Part shown: in pieces, positions 38,323 to 54,580 of the stretch | How positions within the stretch are numbered: position 1 is the stretch's first letter | How the letters are laid out: every line of letters starts with the position of its first letter | Assembly (NCBI GenBank): GCA_902500715.1 | Contig: CABVRO010000003.1 | Span: 20,463-84,462, forward strand | Direction: 5' to 3' | Source of the DNA: an uncultured Nitrospira sp. | Lineage (GTDB): Bacteria; Nitrospirota; Nitrospiria; Nitrospirales; Nitrospiraceae | DNA length: 64,000 nt | Made by a program: the position numbers and the translations under genes | Notes under the pieces: model-generated | What the model was told of the DNA's origin: nothing | Seen by the model: only the letters and a program-made list of their open reading frames with translations | The model's database searches: none

Positions 38323-38324
38323 CG

Positions 38325-38648: not shown

Positions 38649-38685
38649 CACCGTATCCTCCATTTGCTGGTCATTACGCCGCAAA

Positions 38686-38804
38686 GGATGCTCAAAATGG
38701 CCACCCAGCAAGGCCGCAGTCAGTGAAGGTCCGAGGCGTACCCTTGCGGTACGTTGAGGGCCTGAACGCAACGAGAACGCCGCTGGTGGTCATTTTCAGC
38801 ATCC
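38686..38804. repeat. Family A hairpin repeat inside the eCIS operon
   Basis: A 119-bp complete copy. The left arm GGATGCTCAAAATGGCCAC and right arm GGTCATTTTCAGCATCC pair almost fully. The centre has AAGGCCGCAG, GAGGCGTACCCTTGCGGTAC and GAGAACGCC. It begins two bases after the TAG stop of the spike gene (38807-38809) and ends before the PAAR-like gene RBS, so the transcript must carry it between the two reading frames. Confidence 0.88.
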
Positions 38805-38806
38805 TG

Positions 38807-39322
38807 CTAAATGATGGTGAGCGCGCCGTTGTTGATGGTGACCGCCGGCCCCACCAACGTCACCATCGCTCCTTTGCCGTTTTGAATGTAAATGCCCGTG
38901 TCGTTCACGATGAGCGTGGCCCCCGTGGCACTCTTCAGCATGATCCCTCCAGTCGGACCAGGCACATCGCTGATCACGATGGCATTCTGAGCCGCCGTCT
39001 GCAGCACCATGTTCGGGCTGACCGGAATACCCGCCAACCCCAGGACCGGCACCTCAGCGACACTCCCGTACCAACAGCCGCTCCAGATCGGGTAGTCCAT
39101 ATTGCCCTGCTCGAACTCCACCCACACGCCCGATCCGATCTGGGGCAGCATGTACACACCCATTTGTTTACCGCTGGCCGGAAAACAGGGCATCGCCCAA
39201 GACGTGGGAATCAATCCGGCGACATCGGGCACTTGGACTTGCAACCGCCCCATCTGCATGGGATCGATATTGTTCAAGACCGTGCCGCGATACTTCCCGT
39301 AATACTTCTGCGCGTCGCTCAT
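38807..39322 (-). CDS. eCIS spike, phage baseplate assembly protein V / gp5 OB-fold
   Basis: A 171-residue spike protein. The OB-fold is recognisable from KYRGTVLNNIDPMQMGRLQV, VPDVAGLIPTSWAMPCFPAS and SGVWVEFEQGNMDYPIWSGC. The C-terminal part (LKSATGATLIVNDTGIYIQN) starts a short beta-helix, as in VgrG/gp5. It should sit under the hub and carry the PAAR-like tip. It overlaps the hub gene by ATGA. Its TAG stop immediately precedes a hairpin repeat. Confidence 0.9.
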   Translation of the reverse strand: MSDAQKYYGKYRGTVLNNIDPMQMGRLQVQVPDVAGLIPTSWAMPCFPASGKQMGVYMLPQIGSGVWVEFEQGNMDYPIWSGCWYGSVAEVPVLGLAGIPVSPNMVLQTAAQNAIVISDVPGPTGGIMLKSATGATLIVNDTGIYIQNGKGAMVTLVGPAVTINNGALTII

Positions 39323-40443
39323 ACCGGCACCAGCGGGGTGAGGGAGACCAATCCGTTTCGCGTGAGACGGAAGCTTTGCTTGCAGCTCCCGCGCTTGATC
39401 GTCGTGGTCACACTGTCCACATAATACAAACCGTCAAAGGCCAACCCGACGCCGCGCACCCCGACCAGGCCGCGGGCCGTCAACAGGCGGCCATACCGAG
39501 CGACATCCAGAGAGCCGCTCCCCGTCACCGCATCCATCGATTCGCTTGAGGCCTTCAGTCCTTCATTGAGTGCCGCCGGGACCGACAGTTTTCCCGTCGC
39601 CTTCAAGAATGACACTTTCGTCACCGGCGGCCCGACCAGGCCCAACGGTGGTTGCAAGGGATTGATGTCGGGAATCGGAATGGGTATGGGCACCTTGGTC
39701 AACGCGTTGTGAATCATCACGATGGGCAGATCCTTCTTCGTCGAGTTGAACTGAAAATTGAGCGACTCCACATTGCGATCAGCATCCATATCGACGTTGA
39801 GCGCCGGTTGTGGAATGCCCAGCTTGAGTTGCGGCCCCCAATAGGCCGTGTTGGTTCCGGGGACCGGGCCCGGGTCGATATAGAACACGTACCCGGCGTT
39901 CTCCGCCAACTGAAGGATGTAATTGAGATCGGTGCCCTGCTGCGAAGGAATCCGCATGGTCGGGATCGGCACATCGAAGCCGATCGGCGGAATCGCCAGC
40001 GGGATCACGCCGAAGACGGCATACTTCGCCAGAATTGCGGTGACGCGCAGGTTCGCCGGCATGGCGGGAAACGGCAGTCCGTCGAACGCCTGCAGATCCA
40101 TGACTTTGGTCAGGTCCTCGCCGGTGATCGTCAGCGTCGACTCTCCCGGTTTGTCGCCGGAGCTGATTTCCTGGTTGGTGATGACCCCGTCCATCAGTAC
40201 ATGCGGAATGAAGTTGATGGTCGCCACCAGGATCACGCGCATCAACGGCGTTTGCGTTGCCGCCACCAGGAACGCCTGCTGCAGGGGCGACTTGTTCTGA
40301 ATCGTAAATCGTAACTGAAACCCGCCGGCTGTACCGGTGGCGCTGGTCACTTCGACCTCGGTCAACGCCTCCAGGACCGGCTGAGGCACCGGAAAGGGCA
40401 GCACCGGCCCGGCAAGCAATGTGAGATGGATGCCTTTAAGCAC
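39319..40443 (-). CDS. eCIS hub protein, phage late control D / gp27-like
   Basis: A protein of about 374 residues, similar to the gpD/VgrG N-terminal hub. Seen: TLTITGEDLTKVMDLQAFDG, MRIPSQQGTDLNYILQLAEN with AGYVFYIDPGPV, and the ending GLYYVDSVTTTIKRGSCKQS and FRLTRNGLVS. These are typical of the trimeric hub that accepts the tube. GTG at 40443 was chosen because GGGGG precedes it and upstream codons lie within the LysM gene; it overlaps that gene by eight bases. Confidence 0.85.
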   Translation of the reverse strand: MLKGIHLTLLAGPVLPFPVPQPVLEALTEVEVTSATGTAGGFQLRFTIQNKSPLQQAFLVAATQTPLMRVILVATINFIPHVLMDGVITNQEISSGDKPGESTLTITGEDLTKVMDLQAFDGLPFPAMPANLRVTAILAKYAVFGVIPLAIPPIGFDVPIPTMRIPSQQGTDLNYILQLAENAGYVFYIDPGPVPGTNTAYWGPQLKLGIPQPALNVDMDADRNVESLNFQFNSTKKDLPIVMIHNALTKVPIPIPIPDINPLQPPLGLVGPPVTKVSFLKATGKLSVPAALNEGLKASSESMDAVTGSGSLDVARYGRLLTARGLVGVRGVGLAFDGLYYVDSVTTTIKRGSCKQSFRLTRNGLVSLTPLVPV

Positions 40444-40795
40444 CGGGAACCCCCGTGACACCTTCCGGCAACGCAATGTGCACCACAGTGTCCAGACGTT
40501 CGACGAGCGCATCCGGCCGAATCGTATCGTTCGCATCGCACAGGCGCCAATATTGTTCAGGGTCGCCAAGATACGTATTGGCCAGATGATCGAGCCGCTC
40601 GCCCGCCGTTACCCGATGCTCCTGCACGACGGTAAACCGGTCGCTCGCCGGGACGAAACGCCGCCGCAAATGGACCACCATGGTCCCGTCGCTTCCGACG
40701 ATCGAGGTGGTTTTGACCCCGTAATACCGGCTCGTCGGTGGAAAGGGATTCGGCTTCAGTGCACTGTCCAACAACGCCTGTAATGGATCGGTCAT
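40436..40795 (-). CDS. eCIS LysM-domain baseplate adaptor (gp53-like)
   Basis: A 119-residue protein. The C-terminal half is a LysM-type domain: VVQEHRVTAGERLDHLANTY, LGDPEQYWRLCDANDTIRPD. The N-terminal half (SRYYGVKTTSIVGSDGTMVV) resembles tail proteins that bridge the tube and hub. The ATG at 40795 has GGAG just upstream; the frame is open further but enters a hairpin-containing spacer. In phage the related gp53 clamps wedge to hub. Confidence 0.85.
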   Translation of the reverse strand: MTDPLQALLDSALKPNPFPPTSRYYGVKTTSIVGSDGTMVVHLRRRFVPASDRFTVVQEHRVTAGERLDHLANTYLGDPEQYWRLCDANDTIRPDALVERLDTVVHIALPEGVTGVPGA

Positions 40796-40840
40796 GGTGA
40801 ACTCCAGGTAGCCATCAATTCCGAACCGTATTTCGTATCT

Positions 40841-40888
40841 CGTCGTTCGTATTTCGCGAAGAAAGCTTTCCAGCTTTTGCGAACGACG
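40841..40888. repeat. Family D hairpin inside the eCIS operon
   Basis: CGTCGTTCGT (40841-40850) pairs with GCGAACGACG (40879-40888), with one T-G pair. The arms match those of the hairpin at 12064-12155. It lies in the 155-base spacer between two eCIS genes (40796-40950), which otherwise holds no reading frame. Confidence 0.6.
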
Positions 40889-40950
40889 CTTCACGCTTCA
40901 CGAACGATGATCTCATCCAACCATCAGATCTGCTCAACGTTGATACCTAT

Positions 40951-41601
40951 TCACGGAATGCCTGTGAGGCCCAACGCTCCTAAGGTTCCTGCCTGGGCCT
41001 TCGCGCGCAAGCCTTCCTTCTGCTGGAGATAACTCATGAACAAACTGCCCGCCTTGTGCGTAAAGCCCACGTCATCGATGGATAACACCCTCATCCCCAG
41101 ACTGACTTTCGCGCGAATCGGATTCAAACTAGGGTCGAACGCCTCTTCGGTCACGCTGAACTCGGTGACCCGGACCGGAATCACGCGATTCTGTCCGAAC
41201 ACAAACAGCGGCAACGAAGCCTCCATTGGAAGAATCTCCAGCGTCCCCAGACTGGACAGGGTATGGTTCGTGGTCAATTGTCCTGTACTGGGGTACAGTA
41301 GCGTCTCGAGTGCCGCCAGCTGCGGAGAAATACCGGCTTCTCCAACCGTGCGATCTCCGGCTTCCATGTCGTCGGTCGCGTCGATTTCCGCATCCAACTT
41401 GATCGTCTCCACCGCCGGTCCTTTCAATCGAAGCGCCTCGGATCGATCCCCTCCCTCACTGGCACCCTGCACTTGCAACGTACGGCTCAATGACTCCGGG
41501 TTGTATTGGAGCGGAATAATACGCTGCACCTGCGCCGTGGCCGGATCGATCAGCACGATGCCGCCTTTGAGCAATTTGGGAGAACCGGGAAAGCTGGTCA
41601 T
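40951..41601 (-). CDS. eCIS tube-initiation/adaptor protein (CIS_tube N-terminal domain, Afp7-like)
   Basis: A 216-residue protein with the CIS_tube N-terminal domain: KGGIVLIDPATAQVQRIIPL, QYNPESLSRTLQVQ, and KGPAVETIKLDAEIDATDDM. These proteins couple the first tube ring to the hub; in Afp/PVC the matching protein also carries LysM, here encoded by the separate next gene. The gene lies between cargo candidate 2 and the LysM gene. It ends ALGLTGIP. Confidence 0.85.
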   Translation of the reverse strand: MTSFPGSPKLLKGGIVLIDPATAQVQRIIPLQYNPESLSRTLQVQGASEGGDRSEALRLKGPAVETIKLDAEIDATDDMEAGDRTVGEAGISPQLAALETLLYPSTGQLTTNHTLSSLGTLEILPMEASLPLFVFGQNRVIPVRVTEFSVTEEAFDPSLNPIRAKVSLGMRVLSIDDVGFTHKAGSLFMSYLQQKEGLRAKAQAGTLGALGLTGIP

Positions 41602-41639
41602 GCCTGGCCGATTCTTTCTCGTCTGTCGTCCATTGTCGC

Positions 41640-43709
41640 TCAGTCGTTTCCAAGAGGGGGAGGACTCTGCTCCGGTTCAGCAAGTGTCTGTCCCGAGGCG
41701 CGGCCTGGAACCGAAAATGGCAGTAACGCCATGGCCGGCGCGTCGAATTCGACGACAAAGGGCACATCCCCCGTCAGTGCTGTGGCCTCGAAGCGCGAGA
41801 GCGGAACTGTGGCGACTTGCTCGGGGGTCCCCCCGCAATGACCGGGGCAGAGGTCGATCGTATCCATCACCGTGAATCGGACGGAAGGAGTCACCGTGAT
41901 CGTCCCGTCGGGATTGGTTGACAGATCGGCACGGATTGTTGCATCCCGTGAATCGTTCTGCAGCGACGCCATGGCTCCGATTAGGTTCGAGAGTTGGTCT
42001 TGTCCGACCCCGCCCGCCAGGTTGCCCGGTATACCTGACAGAAAGATCATCTCCCTCGGTCCCTTGGGCCGGTCGAGGTCATGTCGTTCGGATGACAACT
42101 GCGTGGTGAAATCGACTGCCCGAGATGCCCCGGGGGGTATTGAATCAGGGTTCTGTTCGAGATGGCGGCGGAGCGCGCCGACGAGGTATTGCGCCGAGGA
42201 GGACGTCACGCCTGCTGCCTGGAAATCTGCTCCAAAGGATGCCGTGATATCATCCCGCCGGGGTGAACCGCCGTTGAGATAGGTTTCCCACAACGGGACC
42301 ACTCGTGCATCGACTTTTCGTTTGATTCCTTCCAGCAATACCGGGCGAGCCCACAGCAGCTCTGCCCTGGCAATGTTGACGTTTGCAAAGGGCTGACAAA
42401 ACGTCGGCGGACAGCCCGGCTCGGACCATCGTGCAGACTGGGTGCTGGGTGAATTAGCAAGCCGATCTAATTGATTGAGCGCACCCTGCTCTGCGTGCTT
42501 GCTCAACTCTTCGGTGGGATTATCCCAGATGGCTTTGGCCGCATCAGTCCAGCTCGACGAATCCTCGTCCTCCGGGTCACGTTGGAGCGCCTGAGTGGTG
42601 CCGCCCTGCTGGATCACATGCGTGAGCTCATGGGCAAGGAGATGGCGGCCCGCTTCGGTACCCGGCGAATACTGGCCTGCACCGAAGACCACGTCCTGGC
42701 CGACAGTGTAGGCTATGGCGTGCACTCCGCGAGCCGATGCCGCCGCTGTCGCATCGTCATGTATCCGCACCTCACCGAAATCGTGGCCGAAGCGGTTGCC
42801 GAAGAACTTGCGTACCGATGAGTCCAACGGACGACCCGGCGAGGCCAGGACATGCTGAACCGACGACAGGGAATCGGCGGATCGTGTCGTCTGTGGAGCA
42901 ACTTGACGCTGCGCGACTGCCGGAGGCGCCACCGGCGCGCCAGGCGGGGGCTGCTTCGACGACTTTGCACTCTTGCACTCCCGCTTGGTCAGGACCAGGA
43001 ACCCATCCGGGCAATGGTAGTCGTAAAAGCAGAGCGGCGTCGCGGCGGGCGGCGTTTCGGTGACGAACGGCCCAGGCCCCATGCCGACCACGATATCGGT
43101 GGCCCGCACGATGACTCGCACCACCAACCCGTCGCTGAAATAGACGAAGCAGCCGTAGTTCCCGTTCGACGCTGGCGGCTCGCACCTGATTTTTTCCACT
43201 GTTGCCTGGGAAGTCGGTGTGATGTCGTGCTGCACGTATGTTTCAGCAGCCCGCTTGCTGATGCTCTCCGGATCCTTACGCCAACTCGGACAGCGACTGC
43301 CGCCCTCGTCGGTCACTTCCTCCTTCGGCGCAGCCGCATCGGAGGTCGCTTGCTCTCCGACCGGCAGCGATTCTTCTCTCGAGGCGCGGCTCAACAGGCC
43401 GCCTGCCCCGGCTAGACGGCGCTGAACAAGGTGACCCGGCGACGGCTGAGGAAACGCAGCCCGATCGGTCGGCATTCGCATGACCAGGTCTGCCACCCGA
43501 TCCGCCTCTTGCTCGTACGCATCACCGGGCTCGTTGATGCGCAACTTGGCCTGCATTGACATGTCGGCCATTTTCTTCTTCTCGCATTCCTCGCAGGTGC
43601 CCGACAGTCCGCCGGATCGGCCGCAGGCGCAGGCCCGCTGCAACATGCCGCGGATGGACGGGGCGGCGGAGTCAGGGACGGGCATCACCTGTCGTTTCGA
43701 CGATGTCAT
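41640..43709 (-). CDS. DUF4157 protein, putative eCIS cargo with cysteine leader
   Basis: A 689-residue protein. Residues 20-80 form a leader with CACG and CEEC (Cys27, Cys29, Cys40, Cys43) followed by GDAYEQEADRVADLVMRM. Residues 285-370 are DUF4157 with HELTH (360-364) and LAHELTHVIQQGG. In between, residues 135-250 hold a cysteine-rich insert (SRCPSWRKDPESI, NYGCFVYF). The C-terminal 300 residues (FTTQLSSERHDLDRPKGPRE, CPGHCGG) match nothing I know and would be the payload. It overlaps the previous gene by ATGA. A cargo role is inferred from DUF4157 and location. Confidence 0.72.
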   Translation of the reverse strand: MTSSKRQVMPVPDSAAPSIRGMLQRACACGRSGGLSGTCEECEKKKMADMSMQAKLRINEPGDAYEQEADRVADLVMRMPTDRAAFPQPSPGHLVQRRLAGAGGLLSRASREESLPVGEQATSDAAAPKEEVTDEGGSRCPSWRKDPESISKRAAETYVQHDITPTSQATVEKIRCEPPASNGNYGCFVYFSDGLVVRVIVRATDIVVGMGPGPFVTETPPAATPLCFYDYHCPDGFLVLTKRECKSAKSSKQPPPGAPVAPPAVAQRQVAPQTTRSADSLSSVQHVLASPGRPLDSSVRKFFGNRFGHDFGEVRIHDDATAAASARGVHAIAYTVGQDVVFGAGQYSPGTEAGRHLLAHELTHVIQQGGTTQALQRDPEDEDSSSWTDAAKAIWDNPTEELSKHAEQGALNQLDRLANSPSTQSARWSEPGCPPTFCQPFANVNIARAELLWARPVLLEGIKRKVDARVVPLWETYLNGGSPRRDDITASFGADFQAAGVTSSSAQYLVGALRRHLEQNPDSIPPGASRAVDFTTQLSSERHDLDRPKGPREMIFLSGIPGNLAGGVGQDQLSNLIGAMASLQNDSRDATIRADLSTNPDGTITVTPSVRFTVMDTIDLCPGHCGGTPEQVATVPLSRFEATALTGDVPFVVEFDAPAMALLPFSVPGRASGQTLAEPEQSPPPLGND

Positions 43710-45073
43710 GGTTGCCGGCCCGCCTTTGGCCTAAGGACGATATGAGAGAGCGGTCCTCCTGCCCTCTGATACAATCGGATGATGTTTCCCATCTGCTCGC
43801 CCGCCATCTGATCGGCTTGCGCATGGAGCACAGGCTTCGACACATCACTCGGCTTCGACAGCCAGAATGATCCGCCAGGTAGTTTGAAGGCGATGTGGCT
43901 GGGCCCTTCCGAAGGATTCTGGAAACCGCGTCCATACAACGCGAGATGAGCAGCCGACTCCGAGTCTGTGGGCGTGGCCTCGAATTGCGCGTTCATAAAA
44001 AAGTCCCAGAGCGCCGGTGGCGGAAAGCTGCCCTGGGCGGCCTGCCGGCTATAGACCGTATCAGGGTGTTGCCCCTCGGCAATGGCAACACCCGACGAAA
44101 CCAGAAATGCCTCACGTCGGTCCCACACGGCGGACACCGGATCGTGGAAAGCGAACGTTCCAAGCGCCCAGCCGAGGCAATTCCCCGGTGCTCCGCACAG
44201 GACAAGGGAGTTGGGTTCCAGCACGAACGCGTGCACGCCGGTATTCAATTGAGGATACCGATCATAGTGGTCGCGGAGTTCGATAAAGAACGAATTATCC
44301 TGTGCCTGGATACGCGCAAGATCGGGATTGACCAGCAGATCGTACGGCCTGCCCGCAACGACCAGCTCATGAGTGCTCCCCAGTTCCGCGGTGAGATCGA
44401 ATGGTTCCGCTTTCGGCTGCTCCGATTCGGTTCCGCTTGCACGCTGCAGCAGCCCCTGCTTATGTCCCTGCCCCTGTTGAAGGACATGAGCGAGCTCGTG
44501 GGCGAGCAACCGCCGGCCACTGGCAGTACTTGGGGTATACGCTCCGTCCCCAAACACCAGGTCTGTGCCGACTGTGTATGCCCTGGCCTGAACAACGCGG
44601 GCAGACTGAGCGTCATGAGGGTCAGCATGCACCCGCACGGCTCCGAAATCATGGCCGAAGTGGCGTTCGAAGAAGGAGCGCGTAGCGGAATCGAGCGGTT
44701 GCCCCGGCGAATTCAGGACGTCATGCACGATCTGCGGGGCGGTGCCGATCCCTACCGCACCACTGCGATTCACGCGACGCTGCACGAGAGGCACGGCGGG
44801 TGAGTCGGCAACACTTGGCCTTCGTCGCGGTTCCGACATCTCCATGACTTGCTCGGCCACGCGATCGGCTTCTTCCTCGTACTCATCACCTGGACTTCCG
44901 ATGGCAAGCTTGTTCTGGATCGGTCTTCCCAGTAACTTACGGCTCTTGCAGGATTCGCATACCCCGCTCAGTCCCGCCGAACCGCCGCACGCGCATTGTC
45001 GCTGGACGAGCAGACCAGACGGCGGGTTCGTGGACGCCTTCGCAACGGTTTGAACAGCGGCAGTCGTACTCAC
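43706..45073 (-). CDS. DUF4157 protein with Cys/His C-terminal domain; putative eCIS cargo
   Basis: A 455-residue protein. Residues 22-80 are the same kind of leader as in the next gene: QRQCACGGSAGLSGVCESC then GDEYEEEADRVAEQVMEM. DUF4157 spans 115-200 with HELAH (192-196). The C-terminal domain contains GNCLGWALGTF (Cys299) and PSHIAFKLPGG (His393), an arrangement like papain/NlpC-type or DUF7689-like cysteine hydrolases. GTG at 45073 overlaps the upstream stop (GTGA); the open frame before it has no leader similarity. The enzyme activity is inferred. Confidence 0.72.
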   Translation of the reverse strand: MSTTAAVQTVAKASTNPPSGLLVQRQCACGGSAGLSGVCESCKSRKLLGRPIQNKLAIGSPGDEYEEEADRVAEQVMEMSEPRRRPSVADSPAVPLVQRRVNRSGAVGIGTAPQIVHDVLNSPGQPLDSATRSFFERHFGHDFGAVRVHADPHDAQSARVVQARAYTVGTDLVFGDGAYTPSTASGRRLLAHELAHVLQQGQGHKQGLLQRASGTESEQPKAEPFDLTAELGSTHELVVAGRPYDLLVNPDLARIQAQDNSFFIELRDHYDRYPQLNTGVHAFVLEPNSLVLCGAPGNCLGWALGTFAFHDPVSAVWDRREAFLVSSGVAIAEGQHPDTVYSRQAAQGSFPPPALWDFFMNAQFEATPTDSESAAHLALYGRGFQNPSEGPSHIAFKLPGGSFWLSKPSDVSKPVLHAQADQMAGEQMGNIIRLYQRAGGPLSHIVLRPKAGRQP

Positions 45074-45324
45074 GGGCCTACTCCCTCTCCGATCCCATTT
45101 GCGGTGTCCTGACCAACCTGGCGTGGGTTCGCCTCCCCGGGAATCGAAATCGCTTTCGTCCGAAGTCGTGGCACATCGCCCAGGCTCGTGAGTCGCCCCA
45201 CCATGCCGGGATCCGCAAGCAATCGTGTCAGCTGCTCCTGAAGCCCCTGCGCGATGGCGTGCCGATCCTCGAAGCGAAAGCCTTTCAGCACGAGGCGATC
45301 GATATTCACGACGACCCTCCTCAT
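45070..45324 (-). CDS. Small eCIS-associated protein
   Basis: An 84-residue protein starting MRRVVVNIDRLVLKGFRFED, with a helical middle (HAIAQGLQEQLTRLLADPGM) and a glycine-rich tail. Similar small proteins lie beside the AAA+ gene in other eCIS loci, with no known role. The ATG at 45324 overlaps the ATPase stop in ATGA; its own stop overlaps the next start. This tight coupling supports it as a real gene. Confidence 0.75.
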   Translation of the reverse strand: MRRVVVNIDRLVLKGFRFEDRHAIAQGLQEQLTRLLADPGMVGRLTSLGDVPRLRTKAISIPGEANPRQVGQDTANGIGEGVGP

Positions 45325-47258
45325 ACCCACCCCCTGGTCTCGGCGTCGGAGAGCGGACGTTCGCGTTTCGCCGCTTCGGTATGCGCCGCATGCAGAAGGT
45401 GCCTCATGCCGACCGCCGTCCCTTCATCCGCCGCCAGAAACGCGGCATTGAGCGCGATACAGCGGATATTCCCGCCGGACATGCTGAGCCTGGCGAGTTT
45501 GGCGTAATCGAGCGGCTCCACCGGTGTAGCGGCTGGGAAGATGCGGCGCCAGATCAATTCCCGCTGTTGCTGATCCGGAAAAGGAAATTGCACCACAAAA
45601 CTGAGGCGTCGCGAGAACGCGACATCGAGCGCCGCCTTCATGTTGGTCGTCAAAATCGCCAACCCACGGTAGGCCTCCATCCGCTGCAACAGATAACTCA
45701 CCTCGATATTCGCGTACCGATCATGGCTGTCGCGCACTTCGCTGCGTTTCCCAAACAGGGCGTCGGCTTCGTCGAACAGCAGCGTGGCGCCGCTCGTCTC
45801 CGCCGCATCGAACAGGCGCCGCAGGTTGCGCTCCGTCTCGCCGATGTACTTACTGACGACCCCGGAGAGGTCGATACGATACAGATCGAGATGGAGCTCG
45901 TTGGCCAGAACTTCCGCCGCCATGGTCTTACCCGTGCCGCTTTCGCCCGCGAACAGGGCGCTGATTCCCAAGCCGCGCACCCCTTTCCCGGCAAAGCCCC
46001 ACTGTTGATAGACCATCAGCCGGTGCTTCGCATGGGCCGCAATCTGCCGCAACGTTCGCTGTTGCGCCTCCGGCAACACCAGATCGTTCCACCCCGCAAC
46101 CGGGTCCAGGTGCTGCGCCAGATCGTCCAGCCGGGAACGGCTCACGCTGCGGCACGCATTCCACAACGCACTGTCCGCCCCATCGCCCGATTCGGCCACG
46201 TCACGCAATCCGGCACCGGCCGTCAGGATCGCTCTGGCGCTCAAGGAAAACTGGGAGGAGACCCCGTCGAGGGTCCCGTTCATGCGCATGGTGGCCGGGC
46301 CCAGCACCTGCTCCCACAATTGTTTCTGCTCGGCGCCGTCCGGCTTATTCACCGAATACCTGATGGTCGCCCGTTTACATGAAGGCACGTCGCGACCGGC
46401 GATGAACAACGGACTGCTGCCTCGCTCGGCGAGATGCACCACGGCTTTCGACGGCCCTCCGTCATGGCACTGGATCAGGAGAACCGCGCCGAGCAAGGCC
46501 GCTTCTCGCTGCCACAGAATGGCGAAGGCATCCGCCTCCGTGGCATGACTGGGCAGATCCTCGGACTGCACACAATACAACTTCACTTGAAGGTGGGTGG
46601 CGACCGCCGCCGCCACATCGGCCTGTCCGTCGACATCGTCGCCCGACAACAGCACGACCGGGTAGGACGAAACGCGCTCCCGCAATCGCTCCAATACCGA
46701 CTGACAAATATGCCGATGTTTTTCGGCCATGACCTGCGGGGCGAGTACCGGGCTGAGCAGCGGTTGCACACGCGGATCGAGATAATTGACGCCGGCCAGA
46801 TAGTGCAGCACCCGTTCGTCGATGCGCAGCCGTCCGTTCACCAGCCCGGCGCTGTCGTCGACTTCCAGCAAACGCCACCGGCGCAACGGCCCCGTCGCTG
46901 CCAACGCACTCCAGTGCGACTGGTCCAACGCCGCCAATGCCAGACCGAACGTCGCTTGCGGGCGCGGCGCTTGGGATTGACCCAACGCCGCCGCGCACAC
47001 ACGCCCGAGTTCGGCATCCATTTCCACCCCGGCCACCAGGAGCAGGAGATCGCGTTCGAAGGCGCTCAGACCGAACAGCTCGGTCAGGGTATCGATGGCG
47101 GCCGGCGCAGGGAGCGATGCATGGGCCGCCTCTACCCGTGTAGCCACCACCCGTTCATCGTGTTCGGCGCCCAGTCGGAGTTTCAGACGCGAAAACTCGG
47201 CCACCAGACAGGCTTGATTCGCATCACACCATGCGGCGGAGGTCGCGGCGGTCTTCAT
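45321..47258 (-). CDS. eCIS AAA+ ATPase (Afp15/Pvc15-like)
   Basis: A 645-residue ATPase. The C-terminal AAA+ domain shows Walker A GESGTGKTMAAEVLANELHL, Walker B GATLLFDEADALFGKRSEVR, sensor-1 LAILTTNMKAALDVAFSRRL and the second region FPFPDQQQRELIWRR. The N-terminal half is the eCIS-type extension (ELFGLSAFERDLLLLVAGVE). In Afp and PVC this ATPase is needed for particle assembly, probably by handling cargo or a baseplate part. It overlaps both neighbours by four bases. Confidence 0.93.
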   Translation of the reverse strand: MKTAATSAAWCDANQACLVAEFSRLKLRLGAEHDERVVATRVEAAHASLPAPAAIDTLTELFGLSAFERDLLLLVAGVEMDAELGRVCAAALGQSQAPRPQATFGLALAALDQSHWSALAATGPLRRWRLLEVDDSAGLVNGRLRIDERVLHYLAGVNYLDPRVQPLLSPVLAPQVMAEKHRHICQSVLERLRERVSSYPVVLLSGDDVDGQADVAAAVATHLQVKLYCVQSEDLPSHATEADAFAILWQREAALLGAVLLIQCHDGGPSKAVVHLAERGSSPLFIAGRDVPSCKRATIRYSVNKPDGAEQKQLWEQVLGPATMRMNGTLDGVSSQFSLSARAILTAGAGLRDVAESGDGADSALWNACRSVSRSRLDDLAQHLDPVAGWNDLVLPEAQQRTLRQIAAHAKHRLMVYQQWGFAGKGVRGLGISALFAGESGTGKTMAAEVLANELHLDLYRIDLSGVVSKYIGETERNLRRLFDAAETSGATLLFDEADALFGKRSEVRDSHDRYANIEVSYLLQRMEAYRGLAILTTNMKAALDVAFSRRLSFVVQFPFPDQQQRELIWRRIFPAATPVEPLDYAKLARLSMSGGNIRCIALNAAFLAADEGTAVGMRHLLHAAHTEAAKRERPLSDAETRGWV

Positions 47259-48553
47259 GTGATCGTCACCCGATAATTGTAAAAAGCCGGTGGCACGGCC
47301 GCCCGGTCGATGATCGGACTGTCGATACCATCCACTCGTATCCGAAGCAAAAACTCTCCTGTCGGAGCATCCGGCACCTGGACGTTCAGCGTCCCCGTTG
47401 CCACGGCGATCGGCGCGACCGGGACCTCCCGGGTTCCTAGCAGGAGTGAGACCGACTGCCCCGGCTGAATCTGCGGCTGCACCGAAAGCACGATGGTGGC
47501 CACTCCGGTCCCGTCCCGAACAACGGCCATCGGCATCGGGGTCGTGATCTCCGGCCCGATCACGAGTGCCACAGCATTACTGAGGCGTGGATCGGATTCG
47601 CTCGGACGAATGACTTGCATCGCCAGTTGATACAATCCAGCCGGAACCGCCGGCACCGTAAATGAAGCGGCGAGGCTGCTTCCTCCCCCTGCGGCCGGCA
47701 CGGCCTGATTGATCGCAAAGCGGCTGTTCGAGAGAAGAATCGTCGGATTCGTACCATCGAGATGATGGCCCGAGAGTTCGACGATCGCGCCGACCGTGGC
47801 GGCCGGCTGTCCGCCCGCTGGGGCCACAGTTTGGATGGTGGGAAACGGCGGGAGCAGATCCGCCTGCACCGCCACACCCAGGTCCCGTTTCGTAACCGGG
47901 TCGACAGGGCCTCGACTCAGGACCGGCAACGTCGATCGTGTCAGCTTGGTGGACTCGATCAGCACGACCGTCGCCACATAGGCCGCAGAAGGCCGGTAAT
48001 GGGACTGTACCGCGGTCCAGAGTTTCGACATTTCCTCGCTGCTGAGAGGATCCGGCACCAGTTTGATCTGTTCGACCTGGTCCGCCAGCCCGCACTCAGC
48101 CAAGGCCCTGAGTGCCGGTGGCAAGGTGGTATCGACCGACGGTGACGGGGTCAATGCCGTCGTAATGGCCTGGCGGTCCAACACCGGCACCTCGTGGAGC
48201 AACTGCATGGCGTACCCGAGCAGAATTTCGCTGCCCAACTCTTCCGCGCTGTAGGCACTCAGGAGATAGTGAAGATCCAGGGCCAGCGGCGGATTGCTGA
48301 GGCGCTGCATACCCGATCCATCCCGGGAGGGCAACGCATGGTTGCGCCAGCCGGTGTTGAACGTCACTTGATGGAGAAAGAGATTCAGCTGAGTGCTTTC
48401 AGTGCCGTTGACCGGCACCACACGATCCGGAGGCAAGGCACTCACGGTGACAGTACTGCCAAGCAGCCCGCTGACGTTGTGATTGATCAACCCGTCATTC
48501 AGCAGATCCCGAAGCACGGCCGTCACGCCGGCAATGGCCAATGCCGTACTCAC
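47255..48553 (-). CDS. eCIS DUF4255 / Pvc16-like tube-terminator protein
   Basis: A 432-residue protein. The N-terminal 190 residues are DUF4255 (Pvc16_N): ALAIAGVTAVLRDLLNDGLI, NLFLHQVTFNTGWRNHALPS, and LALDLHYLLSAYSAEELGSE with ILLGYAMQLLHEVPVL. In Afp the equivalent (Afp16) ends tube growth and fixes length. The C-terminal half has Ig-like beta segments (GAIVELSGHHLDGTNPTILL), an extension found in several eCIS homologues. It is coupled to the ATPase gene by ATGA. Confidence 0.9.
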   Translation of the reverse strand: MSTALAIAGVTAVLRDLLNDGLINHNVSGLLGSTVTVSALPPDRVVPVNGTESTQLNLFLHQVTFNTGWRNHALPSRDGSGMQRLSNPPLALDLHYLLSAYSAEELGSEILLGYAMQLLHEVPVLDRQAITTALTPSPSVDTTLPPALRALAECGLADQVEQIKLVPDPLSSEEMSKLWTAVQSHYRPSAAYVATVVLIESTKLTRSTLPVLSRGPVDPVTKRDLGVAVQADLLPPFPTIQTVAPAGGQPAATVGAIVELSGHHLDGTNPTILLSNSRFAINQAVPAAGGGSSLAASFTVPAVPAGLYQLAMQVIRPSESDPRLSNAVALVIGPEITTPMPMAVVRDGTGVATIVLSVQPQIQPGQSVSLLLGTREVPVAPIAVATGTLNVQVPDAPTGEFLLRIRVDGIDSPIIDRAAVPPAFYNYRVTIT

Positions 48554-49302
48554 GGTCTTCCTCCCTGACGACGAGTCAAATAGTCCTCCAACGACATCGC
48601 CGGCCGGCGGGCGCTTGGTTTCCGCTTCTGGTCCGGCGCGGCAGACACCGCCGTCACTTCAATGCGTCCGATGGTCACTTCCACAGGAGGTTCGGGCGGA
48701 GCCGCATTGATGTGCGGCGTCTTCCGACCCGTCACCGCTCCCGATGCCAGCGAAGGCGGAGCCGCAGCGGATGAACGAGTCATCGCGTGCTCAGTCTCTA
48801 CCAATCGCGGCGGCGGCTCGATCCGTACCACAGGGGATAGAGGCAAAGAGCCTACGCGGTAGTTGTTGTGCTGTTCGGTCGGCTCCATCTCATGGCTCGA
48901 GGCCGGTGTGGGAATCGTCAAAACGCGTACAGGCGGCGATGCGAGCGACTCATGATCCGGTTGAGGAACGACTGTCGAGGCGTGCCTCACCAACGGCGCG
49001 GGCGACGATGCGGCGTGACGCGGCCTCGACTCAGCACGCGGGATCGGCCGGGGACCGGGAGCCGGCGGCGGTTCCTCTTGGTGATCAGGCTGCGCCGGCA
49101 GCTCATCACTGTGATGGCCCCGGCGTATGGCGGCCGGAGGTGTGTCGCTTGCGTCAGCCTGTAGCACCAGCGAATCGCTCACCGGGAGATCGGACGGCTC
49201 TGTCCGACTCGCCGGCGGAGCAAACATGGAAGGGATACGCGGCTGAACCATCGCCACCGTCCCGGCCTGTCGCTCCACCAGCCTGGTCAGAAAATCACTC
49301 AT
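48550..49302 (-). CDS. Proline-rich eCIS-associated protein
   Basis: A 250-residue protein, mostly disordered and proline-rich (EEPPPAPGPRPIPRAESRPR), with two conserved ends: MSDFLTRLVERQAGTVAMVQ and PRIPSMFAP at the N-terminus, and VEVTIGRIEVTAVSAA and MSLEDYLTRRQGG at the C-terminus. This end-to-end layout recurs beside the tube genes of eCIS loci; its role is unknown but could be scaffold or inner-tube related. The ATG at 49302 overlaps the upstream stop in ATGA. An in-frame start further upstream lies in the previous gene and is rejected. Confidence 0.75.
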   Translation of the reverse strand: MSDFLTRLVERQAGTVAMVQPRIPSMFAPPASRTEPSDLPVSDSLVLQADASDTPPAAIRRGHHSDELPAQPDHQEEPPPAPGPRPIPRAESRPRHAASSPAPLVRHASTVVPQPDHESLASPPVRVLTIPTPASSHEMEPTEQHNNYRVGSLPLSPVVRIEPPPRLVETEHAMTRSSAAAPPSLASGAVTGRKTPHINAAPPEPPVEVTIGRIEVTAVSAAPDQKRKPSARRPAMSLEDYLTRRQGGRP

Positions 49303-50039
49303 GACAGAACCATCTCCACATACAGCCCACGACGTTGTTCGCTCATCCCGAGGACCTCTCCCTCCGTCCAACCGTAGGTCCGTGCCAGAAGATCGACTTC
49401 CTGCAACAGTCGTCGGCTCTTCGCCTGAAGTTCACTCCAGAAGAACGTTACGATATCGAACAGCGCCTGCCACTGCTGTCCGCACAGCTCGCATCGCAGA
49501 TCGATGAGCACTTCAGCTAGAGGATCGACTTCACCGAGTCGTCCAGCCAGGGCAGCCTGGTCCACCTCAGTCCACACCGGCCTCTCGGCGTGCCCAGCCA
49601 CCCCGCGCACACAGCGCGACAGAATGATCCGCCGCGCCTGCTCTGGATCGGCCGCCGTGATCGCCAGGGCCAGATCCCGGCTGTTCGGCCCCCGTAACTC
49701 CCAGGGGCGGCCGTCTTGTTCCACCCTCGTCCAGGTATCCTCCGACGGCGCTGCAGATGCCAAGAGCACGCTACACGACAGTTCAAGTTCGAGCCCGTTG
49801 CGACAGGTCGGACATTCTGCGTAGCTCTCGATACGATCACCGATGATGTGCCGACGAAGTTCGAGCAGATGCGCATCGCGTCGCCCAACCGTCCATTCGC
49901 AAAGCGCATCAAACGACTCCTCAGGGTGGGCGTACTGCAACAACAGCAAGGCCTGGTCGATGGGATGCCGACCGATACCCTGCTCCCAGATGTCGATGAC
50001 CGTCGCTGCGGAGAGTCCCGGCTGAGATCTGTGCGCCAT
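49299..50039 (-). CDS. eCIS baseplate-type protein with two CxxC pairs
   Basis: A 246-residue protein. Residues 20-60 are helical (HPIDQALLLLQYAHPEESFD, ALCEWTVGRRDAHLLELR). Zinc-binding-like pairs are CPTC in ESYAECPTCRNGLELELSCS and CELC in IDLRCELCGQQW. It resembles the T4 base-plate/gp28-like family found beside the tube gene in many eCIS loci. It starts two bases after the tube stop. The start at 50039 excludes a long unrelated N-terminal extension that overlaps the tube gene. Confidence 0.75.
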   Translation of the reverse strand: MAHRSQPGLSAATVIDIWEQGIGRHPIDQALLLLQYAHPEESFDALCEWTVGRRDAHLLELRRHIIGDRIESYAECPTCRNGLELELSCSVLLASAAPSEDTWTRVEQDGRPWELRGPNSRDLALAITAADPEQARRIILSRCVRGVAGHAERPVWTEVDQAALAGRLGEVDPLAEVLIDLRCELCGQQWQALFDIVTFFWSELQAKSRRLLQEVDLLARTYGWTEGEVLGMSEQRRGLYVEMVLS

Positions 50040-50041
50040 CG

Positions 50042-50563
50042 TCACGGCTCCGTAAAGGTGGGCTCGGACGGTTCCGTGACCTCGTAGTCCCGTTCCCAGC
50101 CTTCGTTTTCGAGTTTGAGCGTCTGAATGGCCACGGCATTGGCATTGGCATCCAGGTCCGGCTGAGCTTGGTATTCGGAGACCCAACAGCGGAACACCTT
50201 GTAGGCAATCGCCAGCTGTCCAGCCTCGTTGTACAATTCGATGATGATGTCCTTCCGGAAATCCTTCAGCGACACTTCCGCGCCCAACCCGGAGCCGAAA
50301 TTCCAGACCTTGTTCGCCCACTGCTCGAACGCCGTATCGTGCGTGACGCCCCGTTCGAGCGTGATGGCTTCGAACTTGGTGCGGCCGGGCGACTTACGGC
50401 TGGTGCTAGGATCGCCGCCCTCGCGATGCTCCACCACTTCGGTCGAACGCTTCAAGGACCCAACCTTGCTGACGCCGGCCACATAGCGCCCGTCCCATTT
50501 GACGCGAAACTTAAAATTCTTGTAGGGATCGAATCGAGTCGTGTTCACAGTAAATTGCGCCAT
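50042..50563 (-). CDS. eCIS inner tube protein (phage tail tube, Afp1/5-like)
   Basis: A 173-residue tube protein. Seen: FDPYKNFKFRVKWDGRYVAG, VSKVGSLKRSTEVVEHREGG, and ITLERGVTHDTAFEQWANKV, the conserved tube core, then KDFRKDIIIELYNEAGQLAI and the W/S-rich C-terminal region. GGAGGAG precedes the ATG. Only one tube gene is visible, whereas Afp and PVC carry two; the split adaptor gene at 40951-41601 probably plays the second role. Confidence 0.93.
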   Translation of the reverse strand: MAQFTVNTTRFDPYKNFKFRVKWDGRYVAGVSKVGSLKRSTEVVEHREGGDPSTSRKSPGRTKFEAITLERGVTHDTAFEQWANKVWNFGSGLGAEVSLKDFRKDIIIELYNEAGQLAIAYKVFRCWVSEYQAQPDLDANANAVAIQTLKLENEGWERDYEVTEPSEPTFTEP

Positions 50564-50652: not shown

Positions 50653-52254
50653 CTAGGTCGCAATCTGGCCGGCCATCTGCTGCAGCTTGATGATCACGAA
50701 CTCCGCAGGCTTGAGCGGGGCGAACCCGACGACGATATTGACAATGCCGAGGTTGATATCATTCTGCGTCGTGGTTTCTTTGTCGCACTTCACGAAGTAG
50801 GCATCCTTCGGGGTTGTCCCCTGAAAGGCCCCCTGCCGAAACAGATTGTGCATGAAGGCGCCGAGGTTCAGCCGGATCTGCGCCCACAGCGGTTCGTCGT
50901 TCGGCTCAAAGACCACCCACTGTGTACCGCGGTAGAGACTTTCTTCGAGAAAGAGCGCCAGGCGTCGCACCGGTACGTATTTGTATTCATCACCCGCCGC
51001 ATCGGCACCCCGCATGGTCCGCGAGCCCCATACGACTCGCCCGTGCACCGGGAACGTGCGCAGGCAATTGATCCCCAAGGGGTTGAGCAGCCCGTTTTCT
51101 GCATCCGTCATGTCGAGTTGCAGACCGGCCACACCGTTCAAGGCGGCGTCCAAGCCGGCGGGGGCTTTCCACACGCCGCGCAGGGTGTCGGTGCGCGCCA
51201 TGATCCCGGCAATCACGCCGCACGGCACGAAGGTTTCCACCTGGCCGCCCAGCTGGGGGTCCGCCTGCTTGATGCGAGGAAAGTACACTGCCGCATTCCG
51301 CGCCATATCTCCATTCAAGTTCATGCCCGCAACCCCGGCTGCGGCCGTGCTCACCGACCACCCAACCTTAGGATCGACCAACAACATGGCGCGTCGTTTC
51401 ACGCAGTAGCTGAGCGCTTCCTGATAGACGGCGTCGGGCACGTCGCCCCCTCGGGCATCGGACAGGACACAAAGAAGATTGAAGAGGTCGACCTTCTCCA
51501 GTTGATAGAGCCCGGTTTTGCTCGCGAGACTGCCGTTGTACGCCGTGGCATCGAGCACCGCACTATCGACCGCCACATCCGCCGGCGCTGTATTTTTCGC
51601 TGGCGTAGACTTGGTGCCGGCCGTCCAGACATCGGCATCGGCCAGTGTCCCGCCATGAGCAGCGGGTGATGTATTCGATGGAAGGCTCGCCGTCACACGC
51701 ACGAGGCTGGACTCGGAAGCCAACACACGATCGGCACGTCGCGCGCTCTCCTTCGTGGTGAGGTTCAAGAACGTTTCCGTGACGCCTGTGCCTCCGTCGC
51801 GCACAGTCAGGTCGAAGAGGTCGGCCGGCAGTACGCCGAGCCGTGTGGCGACCGCGATCACATTCGGGTCCGTCGCCGCCTTCTTGTCTACGCGGGCCCT
51901 CACCAGCATTCCCCAGGCGCCTTCAGACGCGGCCTGCATGGTCAGGTTGGGAACTTCATAGGTCGCTTTTCCGGCGCTTCCCGCAGTGGCTTTGTAGAGC
52001 CGCACGATGACGGCCTGACTGCCGCCGTTGAGGAAGAAGTCGCGAACGGCGTAGCTCAACGTCATATCGCGATGCAGCCCGCCGAAGATCCGCTCGAAGT
52101 CCGCGAAGCTCGTGGTCGTCACGGGACGGTCGACCGGACCCCGGACGGCCTTCCCCACGAACGCCGTGATCGACGTGGCGACTCCGGTGATGGTGCGCAC
52201 CCCGCTCGGCAACTCCTCGATGTACACACCCGGATAGGTTGGTTGCACTGGCAT
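50653..52254 (-). CDS. eCIS sheath protein (phage tail sheath family)
   Basis: A 533-residue sheath protein. The N-terminus PVQPTYPGVYIEELPSGVRT and the adjacent ITAFVGKAVRGPVDRPVTTT are canonical, as is the C-terminal GRVVWGSRTMRGADAAGDEY, PVRRLALFLEESLYRGTQWV, VFEPNDEPLWAQIR. Contraction drives injection. GAGGAGG lies directly next to an ATG at 52260 and six bases from the ATG at 52254; the latter is the better start. Only one sheath gene is present, unlike Afp (three). Confidence 0.95.
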   Translation of the reverse strand: MPVQPTYPGVYIEELPSGVRTITGVATSITAFVGKAVRGPVDRPVTTTSFADFERIFGGLHRDMTLSYAVRDFFLNGGSQAVIVRLYKATAGSAGKATYEVPNLTMQAASEGAWGMLVRARVDKKAATDPNVIAVATRLGVLPADLFDLTVRDGGTGVTETFLNLTTKESARRADRVLASESSLVRVTASLPSNTSPAAHGGTLADADVWTAGTKSTPAKNTAPADVAVDSAVLDATAYNGSLASKTGLYQLEKVDLFNLLCVLSDARGGDVPDAVYQEALSYCVKRRAMLLVDPKVGWSVSTAAAGVAGMNLNGDMARNAAVYFPRIKQADPQLGGQVETFVPCGVIAGIMARTDTLRGVWKAPAGLDAALNGVAGLQLDMTDAENGLLNPLGINCLRTFPVHGRVVWGSRTMRGADAAGDEYKYVPVRRLALFLEESLYRGTQWVVFEPNDEPLWAQIRLNLGAFMHNLFRQGAFQGTTPKDAYFVKCDKETTTQNDINLGIVNIVVGFAPLKPAEFVIIKLQQMAGQIAT

Positions 52255-52279
52255 ACTCATCCTCCTCGGCTTAAGTAAT

Positions 52280-52599: not shown

Positions 52600-52615
52600 A
52601 GCAAGAGGAATGCCA
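52600..52615 (-). promoter_or_regulatory. Sigma-54 promoter of the eCIS operon
   Basis: On the minus strand TGGCATTCCTCTTGCT matches the sigma-54 consensus (TGGCACGN4TTGCW) at 10 of 12 fixed positions, with GG and GC separated by exactly 10 bases. Transcription should begin near 52588, about 40 bases before the first gene. A GCGGCG/CGCCGC hairpin lies further upstream (52677-52692) in the otherwise empty spacer before the activator gene. Confidence 0.75.
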
Positions 52616-52777
52616 TTAGGGAGATACCCGTTTCGTTGGTGTTACTCAGGGGCAGTTGCAATGGGGAGGCACCAGCGCGGCGTTTCCGCCGCAGCGCATC
52701 GGCGTGGACTCGGCTCAGACTCTGTGGAATTTCGGGACGATGGATGGTGCGGCAAAACCACCGCGGCACTGAGGCAC

Positions 52778-54229
52778 TCAGGCGTGCCCATCGAGTGGAT
52801 GAAGAGGCGTCGGATAGTCTCCCGGTGGGCCCGACTCATCACGTTGAAAGGATTCCCGATCGATGCCGTACTTCCGGAGCAACCGTTGGAAGCTCCGCCG
52901 CTCTTTCCCCGCTGCCTTGGCCGCATGCGTGACATTTCCCCGGAAGGTCACCAGCGTTTTCACCAGATACGCTCGTTCCACATCCATAGTCGCGGAGGTC
53001 TTGACGGCGCGGAGCGAACCATCGAGCGGTTGACTCCTGAGACTGTCCACGGAACATTCAATATCCTGCGCCTGAATGACCGAGGCCCCGCACAAGACGA
53101 CGGCTCGCTGGAGCGTACTTTCCAATTCCCGCACATTTCCCGGCCAACTGTGCGCCAACAGTTTTTCGATAGCCTGGTCCGACAGTTCGCGGGGGCCCTG
53201 GCCGTCGGGGCGTCGAAAGCGCTGCAGAAACCGATGGGCCAGCAACGGAATATCTTCGGCACGCTCGCGCAACGGCGGCACCAGCAGCGAGAGGACGTTG
53301 AGCCGGTGGAACAGGTCCTCGCGGAATCGACGCTCGGCCACGGCCTGTCGAAGGTCATGATTGGATGCCGCGACGATCCGTACATTCGCCAATCTGGTAC
53401 GCGAACAGCCCAATGGCCGATACTCACGATGCTGCACGAACCGGAGCAATTTCGCCTGTACATATGGATTCAGCGCATCGACCTCATCGAGAAACAACGT
53501 GCCGCCTTCCGCTTCAAGCACCAAACCGCCTTGCTCCTGCGCCGCACTCGTGTAGGCGCCTTTGGCATGGCCGAACAATTCGTTCTCGAACAACTGATCA
53601 GGCAGGGCTGCGCAATTGATCGGGATAAACGCCCGATCCTTGCGCGGGCTCGAATAATGAATCGCGCGGGCAAACACTTCCTTGCCCGTGCCCGTTTCGC
53701 CTTGCAGCAACACGGTCGCATCCACCCCGGCGAAGAGCGGCACCTTCTCGACCTGGGCAAGAAAGATCGCACTCTCGCCGAGCAGTGAATCCACCCATAC
53801 CGGCCGCGTCAGGTCAACTTCCCGCCTCGTGAACTGAGGCTCCTGTGCCAAAATGCGACGCACACGGAGGGCCAACTCCCGGTGACGAAACGGACTCACG
53901 ACAAAGTCGCGCAGGATCGGGAGAATGTTTTCCAGTACTCCGTCGTCATGCCCAGGTTGTTCACCCAGTATCCCCAGGATAGGCACAGTCGGCCAACGCC
54001 GGCTCAGATCGGTGACGCAGGATTCGAGCGACAGAAGGGGGAACGTCTGTTGGAGCAACACGAGATGTGGGGGCTGAGAAGACGCGAAGGAAGTCTGTGT
54101 CGTACGATCGAGGACAAACTGCTCTACCGGCAGCCCGAGCTCCAACTGTTCAAGGATTTGAGCGTGGGACGCAACGGAAAGACCCGGCTCGTCCGGTGAT
54201 ATCAAGAGGATTCTGATGAGTTCCTTCAT
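52778..54229 (-). CDS. Sigma-54-dependent activator (NtrC type) with pseudo-receiver
   Basis: A 483-residue enhancer-binding protein. Residues 1-128 are receiver-like but lack the phospho-acceptor: PHLVLLQQTF has Gln60/Gln61 where Asp is expected, and DFVVSPF has Ser where the conserved Lys should be. The AAA+ domain shows Walker A GETGTGK (177-183), the sigma-54 loop as GAYTSA (224-229, normally GAFTGA), and GGTLFLDEVDAL. The C-terminus is a Fis-type helix-turn-helix (VTHAAKAAGKERRSFQRLLR). Start 54229 has GAGGTGAT upstream. It directly precedes the eCIS operon and its sigma-54 promoter, so it is the likely controller. Confidence 0.92.
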   Translation of the reverse strand: MKELIRILLISPDEPGLSVASHAQILEQLELGLPVEQFVLDRTTQTSFASSQPPHLVLLQQTFPLLSLESCVTDLSRRWPTVPILGILGEQPGHDDGVLENILPILRDFVVSPFRHRELALRVRRILAQEPQFTRREVDLTRPVWVDSLLGESAIFLAQVEKVPLFAGVDATVLLQGETGTGKEVFARAIHYSSPRKDRAFIPINCAALPDQLFENELFGHAKGAYTSAAQEQGGLVLEAEGGTLFLDEVDALNPYVQAKLLRFVQHREYRPLGCSRTRLANVRIVAASNHDLRQAVAERRFREDLFHRLNVLSLLVPPLRERAEDIPLLAHRFLQRFRRPDGQGPRELSDQAIEKLLAHSWPGNVRELESTLQRAVVLCGASVIQAQDIECSVDSLRSQPLDGSLRAVKTSATMDVERAYLVKTLVTFRGNVTHAAKAAGKERRSFQRLLRKYGIDRESFQRDESGPPGDYPTPLHPLDGHA

Positions 54230-54310
54230 CCGGATCACCTCTCCACGCTGGGGCTTGTGTCTGATCAATCAAAAGACGCTCGGCGAGATCGATGTACCTT
54301 TCCAGGCAAG

Positions 54311-54326
54311 TGCAGCATTCGTACCA
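54311..54326 (-). promoter_or_regulatory. Sigma-54-type promoter of the activator gene
   Basis: On the minus strand TGGTACGAATGCTGCA matches the sigma-54 consensus at 10 of 12 fixed positions, with GG and GC ten bases apart. It would give a leader of about 70 bases before the activator ATG. Upstream, GATACAGTC is repeated 22 bp apart (54480-54488, 54502-54510), a possible activator-binding pair. Nothing else is recognised in 54327-54580. Confidence 0.6.
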
Positions 54327-54580
54327 TCACGTTGATCGTCATCGTTCCGAATCTGCATCACCTGTGATGCGGGGAGACCATCCCCTTTCGGAAATCGGAT
54401 GCACGCAAATCCTTCACCGGACTGACCGACGATCACAACAGCAGATGAAAGTTCGGACTGCACTTCCTGTGCATGATTCGATACAGTCCGCGAGACAATT
54501 GGATACAGTCGATGTGATGTGACTCTTGCCTGACGGCACTTATACCACAGAGCCCGTGCCTCGACTACCGCTCATCCTCC

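Follow-up and report, generated by a model that had tools for sequence, protein, structure and literature searches.

Two conserved sigma-54 promoters and a pseudo-receiver activator suggest a two-step cascade upstream of an eCIS operon in Nitrospira

The window analysed here is a stretch of 64,000 nucleotides from a Nitrospira genome (G000). It carries an eCIS operon, read on the minus strand from position 52549 downwards, and upstream of it, on the same strand, the gene of a sigma-54 enhancer-binding protein, hereafter the activator, whose likely start codon is the ATG at 54229. The coordinates are collected in Table 1. The operon opens with a small winged-helix gene, absent from an earlier, sequence-only reading of this DNA, and continues with the sheath, a tube gene, two genes without Pfam match, a Pvc16-like gene, an AAA ATPase, two eCIS_core genes, a tube-like gene, base-plate genes and others. 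Pfam matches of the sheath, tube, Pvc16-like, AAA, eCIS_core and base-plate genes support the eCIS identity. In fold comparison, the AlphaFold model of the 89-residue winged-helix protein resembles winged-helix DNA-binding proteins. No two-component kinase was found among the ten frames neighbouring the activator. Beyond the structural genes, an 834-residue protein with an N-terminal eCIS_core domain (24281-26785) is perhaps a cargo, and an RHS-repeat protein is encoded upstream of the activator (56652-57653).

Table 1. Genes and regulatory features of the eCIS locus, in coordinates of the window.
Feature	Position	Strand	Basis and remarks
Remaining eCIS operon	27163..50563	-	Pfam; tube, Pvc16-like, AAA ATPase, two eCIS_core, base-plate genes, others
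Tail sheath protein, first structural gene of the eCIS operon	50653..52260	-	Pfam PF04984, PF17482
Winged-helix protein, 89 aa, first gene behind P1	52280..52549	-	AlphaFold model, mean pLDDT 87.1
P1, sigma-54 promoter of the eCIS operon, TGGCATTCCTCTTGCT	52600..52615	-	Second-best score of 127,970; predicted transcription start ~52588
P1 proximal dyad, TGCGG-N8-CCGCG, likely activator binding site	52676..52693	-	+87 after activator stop, 22/22 orthologs
P1 distal dyad, CGCGG-N8-CCGCA, likely activator binding site	52748..52765	-	+15 after activator stop, 22/22 orthologs; 72 bp from proximal dyad
Activator, sigma-54 enhancer-binding protein, 483 aa	52778..54229	-	PF00158, 202.8 bits; pseudo-receiver, GAYTSA loop, Fis-type HTH
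P2, sigma-54 promoter of the activator gene, TGGTACGAATGCTGCA	54311..54326	-	Top score of 127,970
GTATC element of P2, with two CTGTATC half-sites (22 bp spacing) and, behind the second, a diverged inverted half, ATGCACAG	54467..54508	-	
TATAAG, extended -10-like	54539..54546	-	Upstream of GTATC element; 21/23 orthologs

Orthologs of the activator, 65-93% identical to it, were found in 22 other genomes when 29 genomes of the genus (the window's own included) were searched; Candidatus Nitrospira defluvii is among those named. The sheath gene adjoins the activator in 22 of these 23 orthologs; in G020 only the sheath's first 36 residues lie on the same contig, and the contig of G002 ends within the activator. 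A sheath of at least 65% identity is present in 22 genomes of the genus, all of which have an activator ortholog, and no such sheath was found in the six genomes without one (G009, G015, G017, G021, G022 and G025). Two of these six, G017 and G021, encode a receiver-less relative of about 50% identity, which forms a pair with a winged-helix gene and has no eCIS genes behind it. Four further proteins, 39-40% identical to the activator (L027-L030), were treated as paralogs.

The sequence-only reading had proposed sigma-54 promoters in front of the operon and of the activator gene, and both sites are as it described them: each has the GG-N10-GC spacing, and a direct count gives 10 of 12 consensus letters. 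When all 127,970 positions on the two strands of the window were scored with a sigma-54 weight matrix, P1 and P2 came out as the two highest scorers. This rank alone is not decisive, because 0.36 sites scoring like P1 or P2 are expected by chance per 64 kb of order-1 Markov sequence, with simulated windows holding up to two such sites (in 1 of 100 simulations), and because the loose consensus is not enriched: at up to two mismatches it gave 15 matches in the window for 29 expected, and was dropped as proof of the sites. Conservation is decisive. P1 scores at least 15.4 in 22/22 orthologous Nitrospira loci, at +156 to +166 from the activator stop codon; all P1 counts given here cover these 22 loci, that of G002 (L024) having a contig that stops inside the activator. 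P2 scores at least 12.8 in 21 of 23 orthologs, the exceptions being G020, whose site is damaged (GC reads CC), and G004, whose site is weak. Since both sites are kept across the orthologous loci, we judge them by their sequence to be genuine conserved sigma-54-type promoters. The window's genome has one match to rpoN (PF04552).

The AAA+ part of the activator is a typical sigma-54 interaction domain (Sigma54_activat), with ZraR, NifA, NtrX and FleQ among its solved relatives by sequence and fold matches. The Fis-type HTH is recognised slightly below the cut-off of 22 bits (PF02954, 20.9 bits, E 0.0003). Residues 1-130 were modelled, weakly (local pLDDT 50-86), as a degenerate five-stranded receiver with three helices. 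On this model the domain is an aspartate-less pseudo-receiver, with the (beta-alpha)5 fold and no phosphorylatable Asp: Gln60, followed by Gln61, stands at the Asp place and Ser112 at the Lys place, as had been reported from the sequence, and we add that Gly89 occupies the Thr/Ser place. With the key residues absent, phosphorylation of the usual kind would be impossible. The degeneracy extends to the wider family. Among the activator and its 120 best homologs (best 120 of 7,996 scored), the Lys is found in 0/121 (one gap) and the Asp in 3/121 (four gaps), in line with the earlier claim that the protein cannot be phosphorylated in the usual way. The Asp-Thr-Lys triad most often reads Arg-Cys-Cys (58 of 121), then His-Gly-Cys (17) and His-Ala-Cys (9), and the Lys place is a Cys in 103 of 121. 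Within the 23 Nitrospira orthologs the Asp is retained by G012 alone, without the Lys or the Thr/Ser; orthologs keeping the Asp would have told against the earlier reading, and this single case does so weakly. Phosphorylation is probably not needed by the activator. The Arg-Cys-Cys triad of the homologs (P0048-P0120) is a possible redox or metal site in its own right.

Related loci outside the genus ortholog set, 15 in number (L025, L026, L031, L097, L100, L101 and L213-L221), retain the layout of activator, sigma-54 site and winged-helix gene. A winged-helix relative follows the activator in 14 of the 15, the contig of L220 ending too early, and 13 have a sigma-54 site scoring at least 10 no more than 324 nt beyond the activator stop; the site of L100 comes after the winged-helix gene, and L219 has none. 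Inspected by eye, the receiver Asp is replaced by Ile in L213, L215 and L216, by Val in L218 and by a non-acidic residue in L101, and L097 keeps the Asp without the Thr/Ser and the Lys. The other nine (L025, L026, L031, L100, L214, L217, L219, L220 and L221) have an open frame with no receiver at all. The eCIS genes come right after the activator pair in L097, L100, L213, L214, L218 and L101, the last with no more than a Pvc16-like match; L216 has PF22977 alone, a domain shared with the window's AAA protein. No eCIS genes were seen behind the pair in L215, L217 and L219, and the contigs of L220 and L221 end too soon to show any. A receiver-less eCIS type, considered for L025, L026 and L031, was rejected because the first two have other genes nearby: L025 (L224, two frames scanned) has those of a secretin and a TPR protein, and L026 (L222) has glycosyltransferase and Tad-pilus genes. 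Sister activators that lack the receiver but share the winged-helix partner (L222, L224, L217, L219) are accompanied by glycosyltransferase, TPR, secretin or Tad-pilus genes and not by eCIS genes.

A receiver fold that is retained despite the loss of its phosphorylation residues could sense a ligand or a redox state directly, the amount of activator being secondary. FleQ responds to c-di-GMP and RitR to peroxide, and these two can serve as models. The structures of FleQ and VpsR are among the fold matches of the activator, and the frequent Arg-Cys-Cys triad and the Cys at the Lys place in the wider family point in the same direction, as does a review of pseudo-receivers that names both redox and ligand control (PMC12632262). 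However, the window protein itself reads Gln-Gly-Ser at the triad, with no Cys, and the residues of the pocket differ from one Nitrospira ortholog to another. The linker residue Arg144 of FleQ has no clear equivalent by ungapped numbering, the only comparison made, and the nine loci just mentioned do without the domain altogether. We therefore consider direct sensing unlikely, while giving it more credit than the other alternatives discussed below.

The loop by which such proteins contact sigma-54, canonically GAFTGA, reads GAYTSA in the activator, a change to be added to the earlier description. In the same set of the activator and its 120 best homologs, the second Gly of the loop is changed in 119 of 121, the types being GAYTSA (41), GAFTDA (40), GAYTDA (14), GAFTNA (13), GAFTSA (9), GAYTNA (1) and GAFTHA (1). 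Escape variants of NorR are altered at the same two positions, F to Y and second G to S or N: F264Y and G266S are partly active without signal and G266N fully so, Asp or Asn at the second Gly makes the protein fully constitutive, and G266S, active without NO, is still partly regulated (PMC2941729). Those are laboratory mutants of an NO sensor, whereas here the altered loop is the natural state of a family; natural GAFTDA and GAYTDA proteins are also known from D. vulgaris (PMC4641369). In NorR both changes make the protein less dependent on its signal, and by analogy the activator may already be active when synthesised. The loop is nevertheless weakened as a hallmark of constitutive activity. 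G000 has 25 PF00158 matches, and among the 18 other enhancer-binding proteins that could be read, four carry D or N at this loop position while their receivers retain the Asp (by eye); the loop therefore does not prove constitutive activity. That the activator requires no signal whatever is a guess, made from the loop and the receiver-less relatives. A dedicated non-phosphorelay signal, as proposed by the earlier reading, may act on the receiver, but control through the amount of activator accounts for the evidence equally well or better, and in nine related loci the open frame contains no receiver.

Between the activator stop and P1, the dyad TGCGG-N8-CCGCR occurs twice, 72 bp apart, in all 22 orthologs at up to one mismatch. 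The same spacing returns in two related loci, L097 (+16/+88) and L214 (+121/+193), and L100, from the Acidobacteriota, has two TGCGG-type dyads. In these three loci the recognition helix of the activator reads KERR[ST]FQRLL[RT]K. Where it reads KNRRAFWEL (L213, L215, L216, L218), the dyad is AGGAC-N6-GTCC instead, and L220 and L221, with other helices, have two copies each of GTCAY-N6-RTGAC. The TGCGG dyad (class A) was found in 25/25 loci against 1.3 in Markov-shuffled regions, the AGGAC dyad (class B) in 4/4 against 0.17 and the GTCAY dyad (class C) in 2/2 against 0.1, with three off-class matches in total; as the classes were set after the sequences had been viewed, these figures are a description with a control and not a blind test. 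The control covered the loci other than L101, which has no class motif, and other than a class A' made up of L025, L026, L031 and L219, with one A-type match each, and L217, with none. Over the whole G000 genome the dyad pattern (at most one mismatch) occurs 9 times forward and 9 times reverse, the reversed control pattern 4 and 5 times. Because the two dyads are kept in 22/22 orthologs and the type of dyad changes with the recognition helix, the activator likely binds the P1 dyads and drives the eCIS promoter directly. This part of the earlier proposal is thus probable.

Self-activation of the regulator, another part, is not supported. Conserved TGCGG dyads were not found at P2: matches occur in 3 of 22 P2 regions, at differing places. 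P2 has a different element, with at least two copies of TGTATC in 23/23 orthologs, while TGTATC or its complement GATACA occurs in only 1 of 22 P1 regions. The half-sites are 20-22 bp apart in the 18 orthologs measured; in the five others, the window's included, the last half-site has diverged from the strict pattern. In 16 of the 18 measured orthologs the distance from the half-sites to the sigma-54 site downstream is 149-161 bp; in the other two it is 180 bp (G002) and 81 bp (G004). The diverged inverted half, ATGCACAG in the window, is ATACAG in many orthologs. An imperfect 31-nt inverted repeat (54570-54705, 87%, arms 74 nt apart), next to the P2 region on its upstream side, looks like a small mobile element.

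The element at P2 resembles a palindrome, GTATCNNATNNGATAC, which is present in 29/29 genomes of the genus, the six without an activator ortholog included, in 2-10 copies each; a reversed control pattern gave 0 matches. Its copies are often 22-23 bp apart, the half-site spacing at P2. No P2 region of the 23 orthologs contains an exact match. The best match has one mismatch in 16/23, two in 3/23 and three in 4/23, the window being among the last, and in a few orthologs it falls outside the GTATC element; among 522 stretches taken at random from these loci, a match with at most one mismatch was never seen, two mismatches were reached in 2 and three in 22. Palindromes and sigma-54 sites tend to go together. 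We examined 44 palindrome places, 40 from nine genomes and four of G000, a subset of all places and from related genomes, hence not independent. A sigma-54 score of at least 13 was found 20-260 bp from 24/44 of them versus 6/220 random places, and a score of at least 12 beside 27/44 versus 10/220, leaving 17/44 without. The genes behind palindrome and sigma-54 site include those of a Tle1-like lipase domain protein, a tyrosinase and a PilZ protein. An M48 peptidase gene (L133) was dropped as a GTATC target, its sigma-54-like site pointing the other way.

Self-activation is common among regulators of this kind, and P2 immediately precedes the activator gene. The activator could then switch on both promoters, GTATC being a second site for it or P2 working without a bound enhancer; the imperfect likeness of the P2 element to the genus-wide palindrome would fit. 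Against this stand the scattered TGCGG matches at P2 and the lack of GTATC halves at 21/22 P1 regions, together with the presence of the palindrome in genomes that have no activator ortholog. Furthermore, L097 keeps P1 and the dyads at the same spacing, yet has no TGTATC half-site near the activator start. We give this alternative little credence. P2 is probably not the activator's own target, and we predict that it is driven by another, GTATC-binding, enhancer-binding protein. This protein could be a relative of the palindrome's binder or some other protein, since no P2 region matches the palindrome exactly and the window copy has three mismatches. Among the 21 listed of the 25 PF00158 loci of G000, no GTATC palindrome was found at an enhancer-binding-protein gene to suggest a candidate binder.

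The TATAAG sequence is a possible additional sigma-70 promoter. It stands 28-37 bp ahead of the first half-site in the 16 cases measured, and its presence in 21/23 orthologs raises another alternative, that the GTATC element serves a repressor or this upstream promoter, the sigma-54 site of P2 being driven from elsewhere. Exact GTATC palindromes, however, are placed about 80-180 bp from sigma-54 sites in front of several unrelated gene families, and such a distance is the usual place of an enhancer. A role in repression or at TATAAG is in our opinion quite improbable, and we retain a GTATC-binding enhancer-binding protein as the predicted driver of P2.

We therefore favour, as a fairly probable reading, a two-step sigma-54 cascade with the eCIS operon at its end, running from a genus-wide regulator through the activator to P1. 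The elements that can be read off the DNA (two conserved promoters, a receiver without its active-site residues, the dyads of P1 and a distinct GTATC element at P2) would be joined as follows. A GTATC-binding enhancer-binding protein present throughout the genus would open P2, so that the activator is made, a step rendered less certain by the inexact match of the GTATC element to the palindrome. The activator would then bind the two P1 dyads and fire sigma-54 RNA polymerase at P1. Its activity, independent of phosphorylation, would be set mainly by the amount made, and the winged-helix protein, first gene behind P1, would modulate the circuit and may feed back on it; these last two steps are the least certain. 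A broader proposition can be put forward tentatively, as a possibility we lean against: that these proteins form a natural family of sigma-54 activators that has come off phosphorylation, the receiver pocket being dead (often Arg-Cys-Cys) or deleted and the loop of the NorR escape type. Activity would equal synthesis alone, so that the machine would follow any upstream sigma-54 programme that happens to control the activator gene, and each lineage would keep its matched helix and dyad and rewire only the activator's own promoter.

The closest layout is that of the T6SS activators VasH and Sfa2: these sigma-54 activators, too, are encoded within or next to the cluster of a contractile injection machine, whose genes they drive (PMC10482370). 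The cluster here is an eCIS and not a T6SS, so that an identity as VasH/Sfa was rejected; the pseudo-receiver and the second sigma-54 promoter, with its different upstream element, at the activator gene are further differences. FleQ is likewise NtrC-like, with an AAA+ domain and a phosphorylation-incompetent receiver (PMC10723142), and so is VpsR as regards the AAA+ domain, a likeness seen by fold match only. Unlike these two, the activator has a GAYTSA loop, no clear counterpart of FleQ Arg144 by ungapped numbering and a local target operon, and other genes are concerned. Aspartate-less pseudo-receivers elsewhere have, as here, the receiver fold without the Asp, Thr/Ser and Lys; how bacterial pseudo-receivers are switched has been called a mystery, and the review that says so mentions synthesis control for other proteins, whereas our circuit points to synthesis control by a second sigma-54 regulon (PMC12632262). 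The activators described here provide a natural family in which that question can be tested.

Little is known of how eCIS are switched on. The regulators reported, RfaH, GerE/LuxR and BTAD, are encoded next to the eCIS operon, as is the activator; none is named as a sigma-54 activator in the main text of that report, where words beginning with "sigma" are absent (PMC8213781). No report of sigma-54 control of an eCIS was found among the listed papers and passages of an open-licence literature collection, which mostly leaves out subscription papers, and passages of a transcriptome paper on N. moscoviensis (PMC6606698) yielded nothing on eCIS. The present locus now offers a concrete and testable wiring for the eCIS of widespread nitrifiers. 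It also links the eCIS to a wider set of sigma-54 sites of the genus, beside the lipase, tyrosinase and PilZ genes among others. The PEP-CTERM regulon of PrsK/PrsR is comparable, its bipartite enhancers and sigma-54 sites being scattered over the genome like the GTATC places; its enhancer motif was found through TTTACA, unlike the GTATC element (PMC1569441), and the activator is not PrsR, scoring 292.8 bits with TIGR02915 against a cut-off of 502.6. The palindrome loci concerned are L073, L078, L080 and L131-L170, and sigma-54 sites often adjoin them.
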